From: Burkholderiaceae bacterium
Lineage (GTDB): Bacteria; Pseudomonadota; Gammaproteobacteria; Burkholderiales; Burkholderiaceae_E
DNA length: 64,000 nt
Reading direction: 5' to 3'
Assembly: GCA_023954135.1 (NCBI GenBank)
Contig: JAMLIN010000011.1
Coordinates: 43,400-107,399, forward strand
The notes beneath the pieces are model-generated. The model was not told the DNA's origin. It worked only from the letters and a program-made list of their open reading frames with translations, and made no database searches. Below are positions 55,233 through 63,989 of this stretch, one piece after another. Positions within the stretch are counted from its first letter, which is position 1, and each line of letters opens with the position of its first letter. A program made the position numbers and the translations under genes.

Positions 55233-56477
55233 ATGCCCTCGCCGACCCCGATCGATCCGGATACCGCCGGCGCACCGGTGCCGGTGCTCGCCATCATCGC
55301 GCTTTCGCTCGCGGCGCTCGCCAATGGCGTCGCGCTGCGCATCACCGATGCCCTGCTGCCGCGCCTGGCCACCGAATTCTCGATCACCCTGGGAGAGGCC
55401 TCGCAGGTGGTCACGATGTTCGCGATCGCGTACGGCTTCGCCCAGCTGCTGTTCGGTCCGCTCGGCGATCGTTTCGGCAAGTACCGGGTCATCGCCTGGG
55501 CGTGCGCCGCATCCGCGCTGACCTCGATGCTGTGCGGACTCGCGCCCGGCTATGGTGGCCTGCTCGTCGCCCGCCTGCTCGCCGGCGCCACCGCCGCGGC
55601 GGTGATCCCGCTCGCGATGGCCTGGATCGGCGATGTCGTGCCCTACGAGCAGCGCCAGCCGGTGCTCGCCCGATTCCTGATCGGGCAGATCAGCGGCTTC
55701 GCGCTCGGCATCTGGGCCGGCGGCTTCGCCGCTGACCATCTCGACTGGCGTACGCCGTTCCTGGTGCTCGGCGCCTTCTTCCTGCTGATGGCGCTGGTGC
55801 TCGGCCATGTGCAACGCCGGCTGCCTGCGTCGGCGCTGCGCCGGGCACCGCGCGACGGCTCGCGGCGGTCGTCGACCATCGATGAGTTCCGGGCGGTGCT
55901 GGCCTCGCGCTGGGGGCGCATCGTGCTGCTGGCGGTCTTCCTCGAGGGCGGCAGCCTGTATGGCGTGCTGCCTTTCGTCGCCGCGCACTTGCATGAGCGA
56001 TTCAGCCTGTCCTTGTCGAACTCCGGGGCGCTGGTGATGGTGTTCGCCGCTGGGGGCATCGTCTACGCCTTCGGCGCGAAGCGGCTCGTGCAGAATTTGA
56101 GCGAGCCGGCGATGATCCGCAGCGGAGCGATCCTAATGGCAACCTCCCTTGCACTGACTGCGTTCGCGCAGGCTTGGTGGTGGGTATTGCCCGCCTGCAT
56201 CGTGATGGGTTTCGGCTACTACATGATGCACAACACGCTGCAGGTGCAGGCGACCCAGATGGCCCCCGAGCGGCGTGGCGCTGCAGTCGCCGCTTTCGCC
56301 GGTTCATTCTTCCTCGGTCAGTCGGCTGGCGTGGCGCTGGCCGGCCTTCGGGTGGAGTCCGTTGGAACTGCCGGGATACTGGTCACCGGCGCCGTCGCGG
56401 TCGCATTCTGCGCCTGGAACTTCAATCGGCAACGCCGTCCGCTGTTGGCGGCCGCTCCACTACCGCCGTCAACTTGA
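55233..56477 (+). CDS. MFS transporter whose 3' end appears chimeric
   Basis: 414 aa, 12-helix MFS permease. Seen: TMFAIAYGFAQLLFGPLGDR (motif A), FGYYMMHNTLQVQATQMAPE. ATG 55233 fits better than the upstream ATG at 55182. From about 56090 the sequence becomes more A+T-rich, and the last 110 bp or so recur, diverged but in frame, at 63.88-63.99 kb with an exact 31-bp repeat. This suggests that the resident gene's 3' end was replaced during acquisition of the downstream operon. The product remains complete. Likely exporter or importer of a pathway acid. Confidence 0.85.
   Translation: MPSPTPIDPDTAGAPVPVLAIIALSLAALANGVALRITDALLPRLATEFSITLGEASQVVTMFAIAYGFAQLLFGPLGDRFGKYRVIAWACAASALTSMLCGLAPGYGGLLVARLLAGATAAAVIPLAMAWIGDVVPYEQRQPVLARFLIGQISGFALGIWAGGFAADHLDWRTPFLVLGAFFLLMALVLGHVQRRLPASALRRAPRDGSRRSSTIDEFRAVLASRWGRIVLLAVFLEGGSLYGVLPFVAAHLHERFSLSLSNSGALVMVFAAGGIVYAFGAKRLVQNLSEPAMIRSGAILMATSLALTAFAQAWWWVLPACIVMGFGYYMMHNTLQVQATQMAPERRGAAVAAFAGSFFLGQSAGVALAGLRVESVGTAGILVTGAVAVAFCAWNFNRQRRPLLAAAPLPPST
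56407..56437. repeat. 31-bp direct repeat, left copy (MFS 3' end)
   Basis: The segment coding for CAWNFNRQRR in the MFS gene is identical over 31 bases to 63916-63946. The two copies flank the TctCBA/cyclase operon. Flanking sequence is diverged. Confidence 0.85.
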
Positions 56478-56506
56478 GCGCGGTGCCGATGGGCGCACAT
56501 TCGGAT

Positions 56507-58009
56507 TCACTCCTCGACGAATGCTTCATCACGCCTCTTCCGAAAGTATGGGAGGGCGACCAGTATCAGGAGGAGTGCGGCTGCCACCAGCAGCCACATC
56601 GAAAGGGGTCGAGTGACGAAGGTGCTGAAATCCCCCTGCGAGAGCAACAGCGCCCGACGGAAGTTCTCCTCCATCATGGGCCCGAGAACCAATCCCAGAA
56701 GTAACGGCGCTCCTTCGCACCCCAGCTTGTTCCAGAGATATCCAAGAAAGCCGAAGGCCGCGGTCATGTAAACATAGAATATATTATTCTCGAGCGTATA
56801 CACGCCGATTACACAGAACACCAGGATCGCGGGAAACAGTATCTGGTACGGTATGTTCAGAAGCTTGACCCACAGGCCTACCAACGGCAGGTTGAGCACA
56901 AGCAGCATCAAATTCCCGATCCACATCGATACAATCAATCCCCAAAAAAGGTCGGGATGATTGCTCATGACCTGTGGCCCTGGTTGAATATTGTGAATCA
57001 TCATCGCGCCGAGCATCAACGCGGTTACCGCGTTGCCGGGGAGGCCGAGCGTCAGAAGCGGGATGAACGCCGTCTGTGAGCCTGCATTGTTGGCGGACTC
57101 CGGACCGGCCAAGCCCGCAGGGTGGCCCTGGCCGAAACGTTCCGGCTGCTTTGAGATCTTCTTCTCGAGTGCATAGGAGGCGAAGGACGACAGTACCGCG
57201 CCTCCGCCAGGGAGAATTCCCAGAAGGGAGCCGATTCCGGTGCCTCGTACCACGGCGGGCCACGCTTCCTTGAACTCTTTCTTGTTCGGATACAGGGATC
57301 CGATCCTGGAGACTACTTCTGCGCGCTTGTCGCGCAACTCCAGGTTCTTCATGATCTCGGCGAACCCGAAGACTCCTATGGCGACGACCGCGAAGTCGAT
57401 GCCGTCCTGAAGCTCCAGGATGCCGAAATCGAATCGTGCGACACCGGAATTTATATCCATCCCGACAAGCCCGAACAACAAGCCGAGCAGGATCATGCAG
57501 ATTGCCTTGATAAGCGATCCGGATGCGAGAACGACTGCGCCGATCAATCCGAGAATCATCAGTGAAAAATACTCGGCGGATCCGAATTCGAAAGCGAGCT
57601 CCGTCAGCAATGGCGCAAATCCCGCGATGATGCCGGTGGCAACCGATCCGGCAAAGAAGGATCCCAATGCCGCGATCGCAAGCGCAGCTCCCGCACGTCC
57701 GTTTTGCGCCATCTTGTGCCCATCGAGCACGGTTACCACTGCCGCTGTCTCTCCCGGCAATGCCATCAGGATGGCGGTGGTCGACCCTCCGTAAGCAGCC
57801 CCGTAGTAGATTCCCGCGAGCATTATCAACCCGACCACCGGCGGCAATACATAGGTAATGGGCAGCAGCATGGCGATCGTCGGTATCGGCCCGATGCCAG
57901 GCAGTATTCCAATTACGGTGCCCAGCAGGCAGCCGAGAAGGCAGTAGGCCAGTGCCTGCACGGATAAAACCACATCAAAGCCGAGCAAGAGGTTGTTGAT
58001 CATTTCCAT
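56507..58009 (-). CDS. tctA: TctA, large membrane subunit of a tripartite tricarboxylate transporter
   Basis: 500 aa, about 11-12 helices. Seen: GCLLGTVIGILPGIGPIPTI, IYYGAAYGGSTTAILMALPG, the two TctA G/P-rich signatures, and FFAGSVATGIIAGFAPLLTE. Secondary transporter (cation-driven) that works with TctB and a periplasmic TctC. ATG 58009 (MEMINN) is chosen; ATG 58003 is also possible. Last gene of the minus-strand operon and separated by about 510 bp from tctB, an unusual gap. Base composition is lower in G+C than the rest of the window. Confidence 0.94.
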   Translation of the reverse strand: MEMINNLLLGFDVVLSVQALAYCLLGCLLGTVIGILPGIGPIPTIAMLLPITYVLPPVVGLIMLAGIYYGAAYGGSTTAILMALPGETAAVVTVLDGHKMAQNGRAGAALAIAALGSFFAGSVATGIIAGFAPLLTELAFEFGSAEYFSLMILGLIGAVVLASGSLIKAICMILLGLLFGLVGMDINSGVARFDFGILELQDGIDFAVVAIGVFGFAEIMKNLELRDKRAEVVSRIGSLYPNKKEFKEAWPAVVRGTGIGSLLGILPGGGAVLSSFASYALEKKISKQPERFGQGHPAGLAGPESANNAGSQTAFIPLLTLGLPGNAVTALMLGAMMIHNIQPGPQVMSNHPDLFWGLIVSMWIGNLMLLVLNLPLVGLWVKLLNIPYQILFPAILVFCVIGVYTLENNIFYVYMTAAFGFLGYLWNKLGCEGAPLLLGLVLGPMMEENFRRALLLSQGDFSTFVTRPLSMWLLVAAALLLILVALPYFRKRRDEAFVEE

Positions 58010-58520
58010 CGCCAAGCACTCCAGAATCTGGTTCCGCGGCCCATGCGCTGATCTCGGAGACATTGCCAGCCTGGAAAGCCCGGTCGATGTCGATCCTGAT
58101 CGGTCGATACTCTTCGAATCCGCCGAGCGCCGCTGAGAATTTCAGTTCAAACCGACCCGGCTCGACTCGGTCTCCCTTCGCGAATACCGTGCCTCAGCCT
58201 ACCGGTCGTCGTCGACGCCGGCCGGTATTTCAGGTTCCGCTCGTTTGCCATGCTCATTCGATCGGTGTCGTAATGTCGGTGCGGCCTGTGGTCGCGAATA
58301 TCCGATGGCGCGTGCGGCGGTGATTGAATGTACGGGCGACCCACGGTGCGACATGAAATGCAGCGTGCCGATACCGTCTCCGTCACGGCCCGCAGGTTGC
58401 CGGCGCCGCTGTATCGGAGTTCCGGCTATTGTTCGTCCGCCGGATATCCGCCTTTCGTATCGGTTGGTTCGGTGCCATGGGTGCCGGCCATCGTCTCGGC
58501 GCGTTCGCAGATCGTCACCG
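58010..58520 (-). other. tctA-tctB gap: no clear gene, possible decayed coding remnant
   Basis: About 510 bp between tctB and tctA, which normally abut. On the minus strand one frame reads coding-like near the tctA end (FELKFSAALGGFEEYRPIRI, then DIDRAFQAGNVSEISAWAAE, about 57975-58190) but begins directly after a stop with no start codon, and a second short frame (MANERNLKYRPASTTTGRLR) ends at 58147. I do not recognise either. Possible frameshifted or truncated accessory gene, or spacer. Confidence 0.4.
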
Positions 58521-58982
58521 TCAGCTGCCCGCGAACAAGGACGGAGAAGGAAAGACGATGCCGAGCCCCTTCACGAAAACCAGCCATACGATACCGGCCA
58601 TGACGATGGCGTTCAGCACCGAAACTCGCCAGCTGAAGACATGGCTGGCCAGACTGCTCAAAACGACGAGCAGCCCGACCGCCACGATCACACCGACGAA
58701 ATCGAAAACCAGTCCGACCAGAATTACCGATCCGAGCACGAACAACACCACGCGCCAATCGATCCCCTCTACCGGGACGGAGTCGGAGCGTTTCGACAGG
58801 CTGGTCATGCAGATTGCAGACCCCATGACCGCCAGAACCGCTCCCAGCCAGAACGGGAAGTAGCCTGGCCCCATCCGAGCTGCCTCACCCATGTCATAAC
58901 GCGTTGCGCCGATGGAGAACCCGAGGCCGATGACGAAAAACATGATCCCCGACCAGAAGTTCTGCCAGTTTCTGATTTTCAT
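58521..58982 (-). CDS. tctB: TctB, small membrane subunit of the tripartite tricarboxylate transporter
   Basis: 153 aa, four hydrophobic segments: FWSGIMFFVIGLGFSIGATR, GPGYFPFWLGAVLAVMGSAI, VVLFVLGSVILVGLVFDFVG and a C-terminal pair. The GPGYFP motif is typical of TctB. Follows tctC by 71 nt on the same strand. Confidence 0.92.
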   Translation of the reverse strand: MKIRNWQNFWSGIMFFVIGLGFSIGATRYDMGEAARMGPGYFPFWLGAVLAVMGSAICMTSLSKRSDSVPVEGIDWRVVLFVLGSVILVGLVFDFVGVIVAVGLLVVLSSLASHVFSWRVSVLNAIVMAGIVWLVFVKGLGIVFPSPSLFAGS

Positions 58983-59053
58983 TCCGCCGCTCCGAAGTGC
59001 GAATCAAGTGCCCTCTTTGCACCTGTCTGCCGATGGTCCTGGTCTTCGATGCT

Positions 59054-60013
59054 CTAGCTGGGAGTTATGTTCTCGCTGCGAATGAGCTCGCCGAATCTGT
59101 CGTATTCGCTGCGCATGAACTTCTCGCAATCGAGGGGGTCGCTGGCTATCGGGGTGTACCCATTCGCAATCACCTGCTTTCTGACGGCTTCGTTCTCGAA
59201 CGCAGCCTTGATGGCCAACTGCCACCGCTTGCGCCATTCCATCGACAACCCGGGTGGCCCGAAGACCGCCTGCCAGCCTGTCATGTCGTATCCCGGGAAA
59301 ACGCTCGACAGCATCGGCACGTTCGGCAGGTTTGGCTCCTCCCAGATGCTGGAGACTGCGATCGCTCGGACGGATCCCGCTTTCACGTGGGAGATCGCTG
59401 TTCCCGCAGAATCGAAAAAGAAGTCGATTTGCCCGCCGATGACGTCCGTCATCGCCGCGGCCGACCCTTTGTACGGAACATGAATCATCTTGACTCCCAG
59501 GGCCTGCGCCAGGAATACACCGCAAAGATGAGAGTTCGAGCCCGTTCCCCAGGATCCATACGTCAGCGGCGTCTTGCTTTCCTTTGCTGCGCGGATGAAT
59601 TCCGAAAGATTCTGGGCCGCCATCCGCTTCCCGACGACGAGCACGTACTGCACCGAAATTAGCTGTGTAATCGCGGTCAGGCCCTTTAAGGGGTCGACTG
59701 CATTCTTGAGCAGATGGGGGTTCGCTACAACGTTGGGCCCCACCGACACGACGGTGCGGCCGTCCGGCGCGGCGCGGGATGCGTCCAAGGTTCCGATGTT
59801 GCCTGCTGCGCCAGCCTTGTTCTGTATCACGATCTTGAGACCCAGAGCTTCACTGGCCGCAGGGGCCAACAGGCGAGCCAGGGTATCCGACGGGCCGCCG
59901 GGAGTGGCCGCGACCACGTTGATGGCGACATCGGACGACTGTGCGCGTGCGGCCAGTGGCCCCATGGCCAGTGATCCTGCTACCGCTCCAAGAATGGCTT
60001 CACGTCGATTCAT
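59054..60013 (-). CDS. tctC: TctC/Bug-family periplasmic solute-binding protein
   Basis: 319 aa. N-terminal twin-Arg-bearing signal (MNRREAILGAVAGSLAMGPL, cleavage near ARA-Q, Sec or Tat). Bug signature: VVAATPGGPSDTLARLLAPA and VIQNKAGAAGNIGTLDASRA, with DGRTVVSVGPNVVANPHLLK. Bug proteins bind carboxylates through two water molecules in a Venus-flytrap cleft. Partner of TctAB. Upstream lies the cyclase gene after 122 nt. Confidence 0.94.
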   Translation of the reverse strand: MNRREAILGAVAGSLAMGPLAARAQSSDVAINVVAATPGGPSDTLARLLAPAASEALGLKIVIQNKAGAAGNIGTLDASRAAPDGRTVVSVGPNVVANPHLLKNAVDPLKGLTAITQLISVQYVLVVGKRMAAQNLSEFIRAAKESKTPLTYGSWGTGSNSHLCGVFLAQALGVKMIHVPYKGSAAAMTDVIGGQIDFFFDSAGTAISHVKAGSVRAIAVSSIWEEPNLPNVPMLSSVFPGYDMTGWQAVFGPPGLSMEWRKRWQLAIKAAFENEAVRKQVIANGYTPIASDPLDCEKFMRSEYDRFGELIRSENITPS

Positions 60014-60135
60014 GTTCTCCTCCTGCTTGTATGGCGCTCATCGGTCGCCGGAACTGTGATTCCGATACTCGATATTCGTTGGGGAGATCGTCGCCGGAGG
60101 GCGATCTCGCTCAGAGAAAAGCCCGCTGCTGCGGC

Positions 60136-61155
60136 CTACTTGATGGCCTGAGGATTGACGGCCGAGCCCACGGCCCCGGTAATCGGCAGGGATGGCGCCA
60201 CGAACATGAATTCGTAGATTCCATCGGCCTTGCAATCCTGGGCGAGCTCTTCCAGGTAGAAGATCTCGCCCATCGTCAGCCCCATCGTCGGAATGATCAT
60301 CCGATGCCAGGGTTGAAACATCACCCGCGATTCATTGGGAATCACCTCGCAACCCCATGTGTCGGTCGAGATGGAAACGACGTCCCTGTCGTGAAGCCAT
60401 TCCGCCGTCTCGAAACGCATCCCGGGTGCGTCTCCCCCCGCATAGGTTCCCCAGTCGCCTTCGGCGAGGCATTTCCCCATGATTCCGGTCCGGCAGATCA
60501 CGAAGTCTCCGCGACCTACATCGACTCCCTGAGCCTTGGCGCATCCCTCGAGGTCATCGTTCGAGATCCCATACCCTGGCTCCAGATAATCGACCCCCTT
60601 GTAGTTGGCGATATCCAGAAGCACGCCGCGGCCAATCAGCTTGTTTTTCGTCTTCTCGATGCCGTTCTTTGCCGCGCCAAGGGCGTCGACCAATGTCTGG
60701 TCGTAGCCGTTCCACATCTTGCCCCGGAAGAAAATATGGCCAAGGCCGTCCCACTGCGTACCGCATTGCAGGGGCATCGTGACCATGTCGTCTGCATGCC
60801 CTCCGCCGGATTGACGACCGGCCGCAGCGTCCGTGCCCGTCGCGAACATGGTGTGGATCGGATTGAATCGCATGCCCCAGGTCGACGCCCGCTGCGGGCC
60901 GTTCTGGTCGAATGGCAGGGCGAGGGAGAATACTTTGCCCTGCTTTACCAATCCGGCTGCCCTGATGATCTCCTCGGGTCCGATCAGATTCAGCGCGCCG
61001 ATTTCATCATCGGGCCCCCAGCGATTCCAGTTGGACAGCTTCCTGGCCGTTTCGTCCAGGACCTTGTCGTCGATGTAGACATCGAGCGGCTCGCGCTTAT
61101 GCATCTTGAGAGGCGGGAGGCCTTCCACTTTGGTCATCTTGGTGCGTGCTGCCAT
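60136..61155 (-). CDS. Cyclase-family hydrolase (kynurenine formamidase superfamily)
   Basis: 339 aa. Seen: LSNWNRWGPDDEIGALNLIG (family N-terminal signature) and the metal-site segment MPLQCGTQWDGLGHIFFRGK, a variant of HxGTHxD with Gln-Trp-Asp in place of the usual His-x-Asp arrangement. Metal-dependent hydrolysis of amide or lactone/cyclic compounds is known for the family (formamidase, isatin hydrolase, polyketide cyclase). ATG 61155 is chosen; the longer upstream frame is not family-like. Probably opens the transported substrate or an intermediate. Confidence 0.87.
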   Translation of the reverse strand: MAARTKMTKVEGLPPLKMHKREPLDVYIDDKVLDETARKLSNWNRWGPDDEIGALNLIGPEEIIRAAGLVKQGKVFSLALPFDQNGPQRASTWGMRFNPIHTMFATGTDAAAGRQSGGGHADDMVTMPLQCGTQWDGLGHIFFRGKMWNGYDQTLVDALGAAKNGIEKTKNKLIGRGVLLDIANYKGVDYLEPGYGISNDDLEGCAKAQGVDVGRGDFVICRTGIMGKCLAEGDWGTYAGGDAPGMRFETAEWLHDRDVVSISTDTWGCEVIPNESRVMFQPWHRMIIPTMGLTMGEIFYLEELAQDCKADGIYEFMFVAPSLPITGAVGSAVNPQAIK

Positions 61156-61241
61156 GGTCCTCGTCCCCTGATTGTTCTTGCGAGCGTCGGATTTGCCGAT
61201 TGCTCGACCAGGAATCGCGCGCGGCGATTCCTGGAGTTCCA

Positions 61242-62123
61242 CTAGAACTTCGATTTGAGATGGGCGCCGACTCTGGACATTTCCTCGCGGCATTCGGCCG
61301 GGGTCATCTGCGCCAATCTGTCGGTCTGCTCTTCGATACCGGGCATGACCCATCCCTTCCAGGAAGCCGCATCCCGTTCCGCGAAACTGACTCCCGGCAC
61401 ATCCGGCGTGGTGCCGCGGATGGTGACCTTGGGTCCATACAGGTGTTCCGCTTTTCCGGAGGGTGTCATCCTGAAAGGCTGGTCATGCGCCGGATATATG
61501 AGGTCCGCCATGTCGACCACCCGCTTGATGCTCTTCGTCGCCTGTTCGCGATCCCAGAACACGAGTGTGTTGATCTTGGTTTCAGCGACCTTGGCAAAAT
61601 GAAGGGCATCGCCCGTCACGACGCAAAGCCCCTCTTCGGTGTCGATGGCAACCGCTATGCTTCCGACCGAATGGCCGGGCATGGCCACGACGGTCACTCC
61701 ATTCAGGAGCTCATCCCCGTCCACCACTTCGCGCAGCTTGAATTGCTCCAGCATGACCCCGGTCCAGCTGGGCGTCGCCCAGTCGTTCGGGTGGGGCCTG
61801 AGCGCATACCTTCGCTCTTCCGGATGTATAAGGATTTCAGCGTTGGCAAATACGTCGATATTCTGGATGTGATCCCAGTGCGCATGGGTCAACAGCACCA
61901 TGTCGATATCCGTCGCCTTCAGTTCTCGTTTCGCCAGCTCTTCCCAAAGTCTCGTCCGTCTTCCGACATGCGCCGGATCGATGAGCAGTCTTTTCTTCGC
62001 GCCGGTGCTGTCATATCCCGTCACGAGATAGACGCCGCAGAATGCGGGATGCCCTTCACTCGTCGAGATGGCCAGGCCTTCGAGCAGGACATCGAGTGTT
62101 GGCTTGGCGGGTGCGTTACTCAT
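61242..62123 (-). CDS. MBL-fold metallo-hydrolase
   Basis: 293 aa. Zinc motif LLTHAHWDHIQNIDVFANAE (HxHxDH), AMPGHSVGSIAVAI and VVTGDALHFAK for the later ligands, and YPAHDQPFRMTP. Architecture resembles AHL lactonase/MBLAC1-like hydrolases. With a neighbouring cyclase-family hydrolase it suggests a lactone, thioester or cyclic ester substrate. ATG 62123 is 28 nt after the SDR stop. Confidence 0.9.
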   Translation of the reverse strand: MSNAPAKPTLDVLLEGLAISTSEGHPAFCGVYLVTGYDSTGAKKRLLIDPAHVGRRTRLWEELAKRELKATDIDMVLLTHAHWDHIQNIDVFANAEILIHPEERRYALRPHPNDWATPSWTGVMLEQFKLREVVDGDELLNGVTVVAMPGHSVGSIAVAIDTEEGLCVVTGDALHFAKVAETKINTLVFWDREQATKSIKRVVDMADLIYPAHDQPFRMTPSGKAEHLYGPKVTIRGTTPDVPGVSFAERDAASWKGWVMPGIEEQTDRLAQMTPAECREEMSRVGAHLKSKF

Positions 62124-62151
62124 TCCTGAATCTCCTGTTATTCGGTCGAAA

Positions 62152-62943
62152 TTAGTACATCACGGTACCGGCGTTGATGTTCAGATCAATGCCTGTAATG
62201 TTGCTGGCGTAATCCGAGACCAGGAACACAACTCCCAGGGCAATGTCCCGAGCGCTGACCATTCGCCTCAGCGCAGCCGTCTTTTCCATCTGGGCAACGA
62301 TCTCCTCCTCGGAAATGGCGCGCGCCTCCGCCTGATGCTTGATGACCCAGTCAAGGCGATCTCCCATTACGGCTCCGGGCGAGACGAGATTCACATTGAC
62401 GTTGAATTCCCCGGCCTCGACCGCCAGTGTGCGGACCATGCCCAGCAGTCCCAGCTTCGAGGCGGCATAGGGAGTCCGATTGAGAAGCGGCCTCTTGCCT
62501 GTGACGGAGCCGATGAAGACTATTTTTCCGGACAAGCTCTCCTGCATCTTCGGCAGCACTTCTTTCGTCACCAGATATGCTCCGGTCAGGTTCACATCCA
62601 GCGTTCGTCGCCACTCGTTTTCGTCCACATTCACCAGCGCCTGGGTGGGGCCTCCGATACCGCTGTTGTTCACTAATATGTCGATTCGGGGGCATTTCGA
62701 CGCCATTTGTTGCAATGCCGCTTTGATCTCGCCGGAATTGGAGAGATCCATCTTGAAGTCCCATGCCTTGCGACCCATGGAACGGATCTCTTCGGCGACC
62801 GCCTTCATTTCCGTGACGGAACGTGCTGCCAGTATTACGTCGGCGCCGTGCTTTCCGAGTTCAATCGCTATTTCGCGGCCGATACCCCTTCCTGCGCCGG
62901 TCACCAGGGCCGTTTGCCCCGATAGATCCATTCCGCCTGCCAT
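62152..62943 (-). CDS. SDR family oxidoreductase
   Basis: 263 aa classical SDR: VTGAGRGIGREIAIELGKHG, VILAARSV, LVNNSGIGGPTQ, catalytic Ser in IVFIGSVTGKRP and PYAASKLGLLGMVR with Tyr-Lys. GGAGGAG sits just upstream of ATG 62943. Second gene of the operon after the TetR regulator. Likely oxidises or reduces an alcohol/ketone of the imported compound. Confidence 0.93.
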   Translation of the reverse strand: MAGGMDLSGQTALVTGAGRGIGREIAIELGKHGADVILAARSVTEMKAVAEEIRSMGRKAWDFKMDLSNSGEIKAALQQMASKCPRIDILVNNSGIGGPTQALVNVDENEWRRTLDVNLTGAYLVTKEVLPKMQESLSGKIVFIGSVTGKRPLLNRTPYAASKLGLLGMVRTLAVEAGEFNVNVNLVSPGAVMGDRLDWVIKHQAEARAISEEEIVAQMEKTAALRRMVSARDIALGVVFLVSDYASNITGIDLNINAGTVMY

Positions 62944-62976
62944 ATCTCCTCCATTTATGTTTCTTGATCCGCTCGA

Positions 62977-63666
62977 TCAGTTGTTCGTCTGCTTTTCCAA
63001 TTTTTTCACGCTGAGCGATGCCTTGTCTGGCGCGGCGGAAATAAACCCCGCTTCGAGAAACGGGAGAATCTGTGTCAGAGCGGCGTCTATATCTGTCGTG
63101 GTGCAGCGTCCGTCCGATATGAATTCCAGGCGGCCGCTCTTGGCGAGGGTGTAGGTGATTGCACCGATCATGAAATGGATGCGCCAGAACAGGACATCCT
63201 CCGGAAGATCGGGTAATGCGCTCCGGAATGCTTTTACAAATGCGCGTGTCGATTCGTTGTAAACCTTGGCTCGCACTGATAATGCGAGTTCGCGTGGCTC
63301 GGATGACAATCGGCAGTGCAGCTGGACATAAGCGGCCGTATCGGGCTTTTGGGCCAGCGCTAGAATGGGCCGTACAAAGCAGCGGATGAGTTCTCGCACC
63401 GGGATGCGCTCCCCGCCGTATTTTCTGGACGCGTCTGCAAGCAGCTGCATGCGTTCGTCCACCAACGGTCGGCCACGGCGCAGAAATACTTCCTCGTAGA
63501 GTGCGTCCTTCCGCTTGAAGTAGTAATGCACATTGCCGAGGTTTATCTCCGCGGCACTCGCGATCATGCGTGTGCTCGTCGCGGTGAAGCCGTGTTGCGC
63601 GAACAACTCCTCCGCGACATCGAGCAACCGAGTGCGTGCGTCTCCTCGATGGGTTGAATCTCCCAT
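62977..63666 (-). CDS. TetR/AcrR-family regulator heading the Tct operon
   Basis: 229 aa. HTH: RTRLLDVAEELFAQHGFTAT and IASAAEINLGNVHYYFKRKD; the rest is a helical ligand domain (DUF1956/CecR-like type). First gene of the minus-strand operon, so it likely autoregulates through the palindrome at 63721. Ends with a Lys-rich tail KKLEKQTNN. Codon use is more A+T-rich than the window average, like its neighbours. Confidence 0.92.
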   Translation of the reverse strand: MGDSTHRGDARTRLLDVAEELFAQHGFTATSTRMIASAAEINLGNVHYYFKRKDALYEEVFLRRGRPLVDERMQLLADASRKYGGERIPVRELIRCFVRPILALAQKPDTAAYVQLHCRLSSEPRELALSVRAKVYNESTRAFVKAFRSALPDLPEDVLFWRIHFMIGAITYTLAKSGRLEFISDGRCTTTDIDAALTQILPFLEAGFISAAPDKASLSVKKLEKQTNN

Positions 63667-63720
63667 CTGCCCTCCTTTGTGGGTCTCTAGTGGTGCGACA
63701 TCGACATGGTCATTGTCATA

Positions 63721-63736
63721 AGTCAGTCGACCGACT
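63721..63736. promoter_or_regulatory. Operator-like palindrome upstream of the TetR gene
   Basis: AGTCAGTC-GACCGACT is a 16-bp inverted repeat with one mismatch, about 55 bp upstream of the TetR start, a typical position for TetR autorepression. Inference. Confidence 0.55.
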
Positions 63737-63869
63737 AAATCGCAGAGTATCGGCCGGAGCAGCAGAAGTCAACAATCAGGCTTCCGCGATTTCTGGTTCG
63801 AAGCTACCCGGAAGCTGTCGAGTCGCCGACTACATCTACCGGGATGTGATCACCCGAAGGTTTCCATTG

Positions 63870-63989
63870 CAGCGTGTGCGCCCGGCGCTCGCCGTCGGCG
63901 CGCTGGCGGTGGTGCTCTGCGCCTGGAACTTCAATCGGCAACGCCGCCTGCTGCTGGCGGGCGCGCCGGCGGGACCGGGGGCGGCATGA
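63870..63989 (+). pseudogene. Displaced original 3' end of the MFS gene
   Basis: In frame, PALAVGALAVVLCAWNFNRQ followed by RRLLLAGAPAGPGAA and stop corresponds to the C-terminus of the MFS protein encoded at 55.2-56.5 kb (GAVAVAFCAWNFNRQRRPLL). The G+C-rich codon use matches the resident genome. No start or upstream portion is present. The stop overlaps an ATG (63986), suggesting that the original gene was followed directly by another gene. It marks the right edge of the acquired operon. Confidence 0.75.
63916..63946. repeat. 31-bp direct repeat, right copy
   Basis: Identical to 56407-56437. It lies in the displaced MFS 3' end and borders the acquired segment. Confidence 0.85.

Follow-up and report, generated by a model that had tools for sequence, protein, structure and literature searches.

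An operon flanked by an MFS transporter gene and an MFS-like stub

One end of the window, by which we mean the whole stretch of 64,000 nucleotides analysed here, carries a gene for an MFS transporter (55233-56477), followed by seven same-strand genes of lower G+C content and then by a short stub that encodes an MFS C-terminus. The features are listed below.

55233..56003, + strand: MFS transporter gene, putative resident 5' part, about codons 1-257; near-identical to the metagenome protein P0002; GC3 0.89 (55233-56063)
56004..56477, + strand: MFS gene, foreign-looking 3' part; divergent from P0002; GC3 0.77 (56064-56474)
56507..58018, - strand: TctA, large membrane subunit of a tripartite tricarboxylate transporter; PF01970, 530.7 bits; a start at 58063 is also possible
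58521..58982, - strand: TctB, small membrane subunit; PF07331, 71.9 bits
59054..60013, - strand: TctC/Bug solute-binding protein; PF03401, 167.7 bits
60136..61155, - strand: putative cyclase of the PF04199 family; PF04199, 74.6 bits
61242..62123, - strand: MBL-fold hydrolase, distantly lactonase-like; PF00753, 65.5 bits
62152..62943, - strand: short-chain dehydrogenase/reductase (SDR); PF00106, 184.8 bits
62977..63666, - strand: TetR-family regulator; PF17939 and PF00440
63721..63736, no strand: predicted operator, a near-perfect palindrome upstream of TetR; symmetry at 14 of 16 positions
63870..63887, no strand: right junction zone between operon-side DNA and the probable native MFS end; G+C jump at 63870, P0002-like frame from 63888
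63888..63989, + strand: probable displaced native MFS 3' end, 33 codons and a stop; the last 30 codons match the end of P0002

The genes for TctA, TctB and TctC lie together (PF01970, PF07331 and PF03401), as in a tripartite tricarboxylate transporter operon. By E-value, the solved structure nearest to TctC is a periplasmic terephthalate-binding protein (8hka, E 8.5e-49), and the cyclase matches an uncharacterised protein (5ibz_A, E 6.9e-62). The best NCBIfam matches of the MBL-fold hydrolase are lactonases, every one of them below the cut-off. Six segments of the gap of about 500 bp at 58019-58520 were without a Pfam match, and one of them also lacked a plasmid match. These annotations predict that the Tct system imports a carboxylic acid and that the cyclase, the MBL-fold hydrolase and the SDR convert it under TetR control. 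An earlier note on this DNA had remarked on the lack of an integrase, IS element or tRNA, and this agrees with our results: ARAGORN found no tRNA genes in the window, and Pfam assigned neither an integrase nor a transposase among the seven predicted genes of the insert.

The MFS gene is a mosaic by protein comparison

The MFS comparison took in 35 proteins, with P0009 excluded as a fragment, and 20 of the 35 were used for trees. The most informative relative was P0002, which is known as a protein only, from a contig of 1879 bp, and resembles the product of an uninterrupted MFS gene. Over residues 14-215 it is 98% identical to the window MFS protein. The differences between the two number 9 in the first 240 residues and 44 in the other 174; when the split is set at residue 257 instead, 11 fall before it and 42 in the last 157 residues. 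This step has a Fisher p of 9e-11 at the best split (uncorrected for the choice of split) and was matched in none of 2000 permutations in a conservation-aware breakpoint test. At the protein level, the switch is placed at 55707-56058 (2 log units), an uncertainty of about 350 bp, and the drop in GC3 starts only at 56073 (120-nt windows). The earlier note had drawn the left boundary at 56090; the fall in GC3 is close to that position, and the protein-level switch lies just to its left. Because P0002 is near-identical to the 5' part, diverges afterwards, and has a final 30 residues identical to the translation of the right-hand stub, the left MFS gene is, as judged from its sequence, a mosaic that switches near 56.0 kb. 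The full-length frame is kept across this join, and the step, measured against a protein-level relative, places one border in homologous sequence.

Comparison with six further relatives indicated which part is unusual. Five of the six (P0003, P0004, P0005, P0007 and P0008) are more similar to P0002 than to the window MFS over residues 260-401, with P0003 being 83% identical to P0002 versus 78% to the window MFS; the exception is P0006, to which both C-terminal parts are about equally close (79% and 78%). Over residues 14-215, the two proteins are about equally close to the relatives (P0003: 88% each). By these comparisons, the 3' part of the left copy is the odd one out. In the N-part tree the path between P0001 and P0002 is 0.03, with a pairing support of just 85/60. 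In the C-part tree the row nearest to P0001 is P0004 at 0.30, and P0002 falls outside the five nearest, with P0001 and P0002 as sisters not rejected (AU p 0.478).

Divergence of the MFS 3' part in place was considered and is disfavoured, because this part is farther from P0002 (75% identity) than from P0003-P0007 (76-79%). Two observations run counter to that rejection: P0008 is only 74% identical to the MFS 3' part, and the sister relation with P0002 stands unrejected.

The right-hand stub and the composition of the insert

The earlier note had claimed that the MFS gene and the fragment to the right of the operon encode the same C-terminus and share an exact 31-bp match. This was confirmed: the match lies at 56407-56437 and 63916-63946, and its 29-bp core has two occurrences in the window (at most 3 mismatches) against 0.00 expected in 100 shuffles. 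Alignment of the two MFS ends extends the repeat to 72 nt at 83% identity, with the copies 7509 bp apart. On its own the 31-bp match is weak evidence, because the motif that it encodes, CAWNFNRQRR, is conserved, and with local codon use two independent copies have a probability of about 0.02 of agreeing at every degenerate codon.

The stub is more informative. From 63888 its frame agrees with P0002 at 32 of 33 residues, and, in a protein-level comparison made at the contig tip, it lacks about codons 257-382 of P0002. As the earlier note had described, this copy is G+C-rich (GC3 0.89 over 63882-63986) and its TGA overlaps an ATG, at 63986, with which the next gene starts. The product of that gene begins MNSRR. 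The stub is thus most likely, from these sequence features, the displaced native end of the MFS gene. The contig ends at 64000, the last base of the window and about 113-131 bp beyond the right junction, so that this junction, seen as a switch in both G+C and frame at 63870-63887, rests on the contig tip.

Base composition changes at both sides of the insert, with GC3 falling from 56073 and G+C jumping at 63870, from 0.53 to 0.83 in 30-bp windows. G+C is 0.70 to the left of 55900 and 0.57-0.61 in the operon genes, which bears out the earlier description of the left copy's end and the roughly 7 kb between the copies as richer in A+T. The GC3 of the operon genes is 0.66-0.77; by this measure the left MFS 3' part goes with the operon, and the stub goes with the resident genes.

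Searches for the operon, its donor and the empty junction

In the family, the MFS gene was found in 2 of 74 genomes at E<=1e-90, namely its own and one at 56%. The hybrid MFS occurs on one public contig and the operon's MBL protein on six. For the MBL protein, the remaining 398 genomes of the order contained no relative at E<=1e-60, and the remaining 368 of the class contained none at E<=1e-50. The cyclase has a close relative in 8 of the 398 other order genomes. Eight stretches around such relatives (8 of 13 cyclase relatives, some truncated at the end of a contig) showed no operon like that of the window: TctA, TctB, MBL and TetR had no match there, and the only hits were distant TctC matches and one SDR at 32%, adjoining the cyclase in L099. 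Among plasmids, TctA relatives reach 70% DNA identity, the best full-length match of the MBL protein is 53% (Streptomyces), and the best cyclase match is 56% (Rhizobium). By sequence comparison, the operon looks alien to the sampled relatives. A donor was looked for and not found; the MFS 3' part has other relatives at 77-79% identity at best.

In 69 MFS loci, many with flanks of only 1.5 kb or cut at contig ends, TctA, TctB, MBL and TetR had no matches at E<=1e-8; distant matches to TctC, SDR and cyclase (26-33%) occurred in some of them. The earlier note had proposed looking in close relatives for an MFS gene followed directly by the gene that begins at 63986. P0002, apparently uninterrupted, supports a displaced native MFS end at the protein level. 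At the DNA level, the sequence downstream of the MFS gene was read in 23 loci (22 of the 50 in one set and one from another), and none held a convincing gene of at least 60 aa with an ATGA overlap: L031 has the ATGA with a frame of just 55 aa, and in L046 the overlapping frame, of 100 aa, starts with TTG.

Probable origin of the arrangement

We consider it probable that a foreign MFS 3' part and the operon arrived together on one piece of DNA and recombined into the resident MFS gene near 56.0 kb, with a likely non-homologous join at about 63.88 kb that left a stub, most probably native. Donor DNA carrying a related MFS 3' part and the operon would have entered the cell, and recombination within the shared gene, presumably by RecA, would have produced the full-length, in-frame hybrid that we observe. 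The other end would have joined towards the end of that resident gene, with the loss of about codons 257-382, or some 0.4 kb; this figure derives from P0002, and the stub itself is observed. The earlier note had proposed much the same. The mosaic gene, the foreign-looking 3' part that matches the operon in composition and the displaced native end all favour recombination with donor DNA, and the illegitimate nature of the right join is what we infer. The right junction re-enters the very gene exchanged at the left, an outcome that would be rare for a random join. As regards the uptake of linear DNA, for instance by competence, a ComEC-type domain is present, in a search that also matches in E. 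coli; Ku was looked for and not found. The presence of the MBL protein on six public contigs, as against one for the hybrid MFS, counts against the proposed event.

The simplest mechanism would be homology-facilitated illegitimate recombination (HFIR), which would be expected to leave such a footprint. HFIR is known in Acinetobacter baylyi, Streptococcus pneumoniae and Pseudomonas stutzeri and is rare in E. coli conjugation. Laboratory events insert about 1 kb and delete about 1 kb on average, mostly with 3-10 bp of microhomology (PMC3240628). As in HFIR, one end here lies in homologous DNA and the other apparently does not; foreign DNA seems to have been gained, and resident DNA was probably lost. 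Unlike the laboratory events, the present case has about 7.4 kb of non-homologous cargo and a putative loss of about 0.4 kb. This difference in size counts against HFIR.

An assembly artefact at the right or both junctions is unlikely, though several facts suit it; it would mean that reads from a co-occurring strain with the gene uninterrupted had been attached to the contig tip of another strain or species. The distance from the junction to the contig end is close to a read or k-mer length, no overlap of the tip with other contigs of the genome was found (only a 39-bp, 85% match in C42), and the difference in public contig counts fits as well. Against this, both joins, separated by about 7.9 kb, would need to hit one and the same gene, and the left one preserves the full-length frame. 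The right join also lies upstream of the 31-bp repeat and not inside it, and therefore a misjoin driven by the repeat does not give the structure.

It is quite improbable that the arrangement is older, arose in another lineage and was moved whole by homologous recombination in the MFS gene and the next gene. The left switch does lie within homologous sequence, and the right exchange point could be past the contig end. The stub, however, looks local because it is P0002-type at 32 of 33 residues with resident-like GC3, and a whole transfer merely shifts the original event to another place. Hardly any better is a Campbell-type route, in which a circular molecule would integrate through one crossover within the MFS gene and part of the duplicate would then be lost, although in an E. 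coli test single crossovers that left a partial duplication were the more frequent result (PMC3240628). A crossover near codon 257 should leave the rest of the resident gene at the right; just the last 33 codons are there, and this route therefore needs an extra deletion.

Site-specific integration with the 31-bp repeat as attachment core and a replacement 3' end, as in tRNA-targeting islands, would suit the direct repeat and the restored gene end, but we reject it, with very little probability left to it, because the foreign tract begins about 350-700 bp before the core on the left; native-type sequence also precedes the core on the right, and the seven genes predicted in the insert include no recombinase. 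Some genomic islands integrate into the 3' ends of genes and restore them. Like such islands, the present insert leaves a full-length gene and a remnant of its end at the far border. It differs from them in that its predicted genes include no integrase and the exchange took place away from the repeated core.

Relation to known systems

The proposed recombination of donor DNA into the MFS gene also has a counterpart in T6SS effector-immunity and Rhs loci, in which 3'-end displacement leaves the remnant orphaned downstream (Kirchberger et al. 2017, PMC5361080). The likeness lies in a conserved 5' anchor, behind which the old 3' end gives way to a new end or module (PMC5361080). In contrast to those loci, the gene here codes for an ordinary transporter, the incoming end represents a homologous form of the same domain, and the operon carried along is predicted to be catabolic. 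The finding makes a good natural example, but of a process already known; it does not define a new type of system.

Should both junctions be confirmed, the locus would be a natural case of an ordinary transporter gene anchoring a whole predicted catabolic operon, and the capture would exceed the laboratory average for one-sided homology; no gene of a mobile element was identified within the insert. It is very doubtful that the transporter gene serves as an integrase-free docking site, where cargo with a homologous 3' part swaps in behind a conserved 5' part, the gene stays working, the cargo can exit through exchange between the 31-bp repeats, and catabolic operons turn over like Rhs effector ends. 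The locus does offer a recipe for recognising such events: a mosaic gene at one side and its native end at the other.

Layout of the locus and composition of its parts

On contig C13 of a 4.36-Mb assembly (116 contigs, 98% complete) the window spans bases 43400-107399, and the contig terminates at 107399, the last base of the window. The locus comprises the following features:

55233-56477, +, MFS transporter gene
From 29 bp past the MFS gene, - (all seven), block of TctA, TctB, TctC, putative cyclase, MBL-fold hydrolase, SDR and TetR regulator genes
63721-63736, palindrome AGTCAGTCGACCGACT upstream of the TetR gene, candidate operator

The TetR gene is followed by ~200 bp of lower-G+C DNA and then by a stub coding for an MFS C-terminus. 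The TGA of the stub overlaps an ATG at 63986, and the contig stops after just 15 bases of this next frame. TctA and TctB genes are usually adjacent. Here a 500-bp stretch with no assigned gene (58019-58520) separates them, and a Pfam search of six segments of it gave no match.

An earlier note had contrasted an A+T-richer left MFS end and operon with a G+C-rich right copy, and this contrast is borne out: GC3 is 0.89 in the 5' part of the MFS gene and 0.77 past the split at 56064; the operon genes have 0.66-0.77 and the stub 0.89. G+C steps from 0.53 to 0.83 at 63870. In 120-nt windows GC3 drops from 56073 onward, close to the previously proposed switch point at 56090. In composition, therefore, the left 3' part resembles the operon, and the stub resembles the resident genome.

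The exact 31-bp match reported between the two MFS ends is real: repeat search and alignment place it within a 72-nt direct repeat of 83% identity. As evidence it carries less weight than first appears, because the motif it specifies is conserved across the family. Given local codon use, the probability that two independent copies match at all degenerate codons is ~0.02. The codons AAT and CAA are in the minority here (7 of 35 Asn and 2 of 40 Gln codons, respectively), and of 23 relatives, the two whose DNA was located by the motif search have AAC and CAG; this codon choice mildly favours shared descent of both repeat copies.

The MFS gene resembles a mosaic

A protein search revealed P0002, a 415-residue metagenome protein (source contig 1879 bp) that appears to be an uninterrupted relative of the window's MFS. 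Over its last 30 residues it is identical to the translated stub (32 of the last 33), and the window's own MFS differs from it there. The window's MFS and P0002 show 9 differences in the first 240 residues and 44 in the remaining 174, a step reached in none of 2000 permutations that kept family conservation classes. Fisher's test placed the best split at residue 240, and a two-rate likelihood favoured residue 257 (56004); the position is not sharp, as splits from 55707 to 56058 all fall within two log units.

We compared both proteins with six further MFS relatives, P0003-P0008. Over residues 14-215 each is 88% identical to P0003; over residues 260-401 identity is 75% between the window's MFS and P0002, 78% between the window's MFS and P0003, and 83% between P0002 and P0003. 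In this latter region five of the six relatives are closer to P0002, and P0006 is about equal to both (79% and 78%). The protein comparisons thus single out the window's MFS as having the odd 3' part. The trees agree with the mosaic reading in branch length: the N-part tree separates the window's MFS and P0002 by 0.03, their pairing having 85/60 support only, and the C-part tree puts P0002 outside the window protein's five nearest, with the two as sisters not rejected (AU p 0.478).

A single recombination event could account for the arrangement

We propose that a donor fragment carrying an MFS 3' part and the operon would have entered by homologous recombination near 56.0 kb on the left, and by joining at 63.87-63.89 kb within the end of the resident gene on the right. 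A single event of this kind accounts for the hybrid gene being in frame, for the stub, for the composition and for the absence of the native copy's middle section. The proposed event would fit the pattern of homology-facilitated illegitimate recombination, in which one end is homologous and the other illegitimate, usually with 3-10 bp of microhomology, and resident DNA is deleted (PMC3240628); compared with the averages given in that paper, it would have inserted more DNA and deleted less. Other papers invoke the same process for variable segments of E. coli genomes (PMC2884548) and for Vibrio cholerae effector-immunity arrays and Rhs genes; in these, a new end attaches to a conserved 5' part acting as anchor, and the old end stays as an orphan (PMC5361080). 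On this reading the locus would be a new example of a known process.

The right junction sits at the contig tip and might instead have arisen in assembly, since contig tips are also where chimeric ends occur; moreover, one public contig carries the hybrid MFS, and six carry a protein identical to the MBL protein (61242-62123). However, the two joins lie within one and the same gene, with the right join outside the repeat, so we consider a pure artefact unlikely. The break itself could be an assembly-graph outcome if insertion-bearing and uninterrupted alleles share the stub and next gene; no overlap with the C13 tip was found among the other contigs of the genome. Taken together, the observation in the earlier note is confirmed, and its reading as recombined donor DNA is supported in its main points (mosaic gene, foreign-looking 3' part, displaced end), although the mechanism itself is unproven.

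Origin and predicted role of the operon genes

For the MBL gene, the order-level sample (398 genomes besides the window's own) gave no relative at E<=1e-60, and the class-level sample (368 besides it) none at E<=1e-50; the two draws share a few order genomes. The best protein-database relatives of the MBL protein share 61% identity with it; of the 120 matches listed, those named by organism are mostly Actinomycetota (e.g. Streptomyces), with some Chloroflexota and Dormibacterota (~52-58%). No solved relative of the MBL protein was found at E<=1e-8, and TctC is most similar to solved Bug-type receptors, terephthalate-binding proteins among them. Cyclase relatives (54-65%) occur in 8 of the 398 other order genomes; the eight stretches fetched around them contain distant TctC matches and, in one, a distant SDR, with no match to TctA, TctB, MBL or TetR. 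From these relatives we predict uptake of a carboxylic acid followed by its hydrolysis, putatively controlled by the TetR protein at the palindrome. A different cyclase-family gene (31% identical) lies divergently beside a related MFS gene (56%) in the nearest family relative (L008:326-1276).
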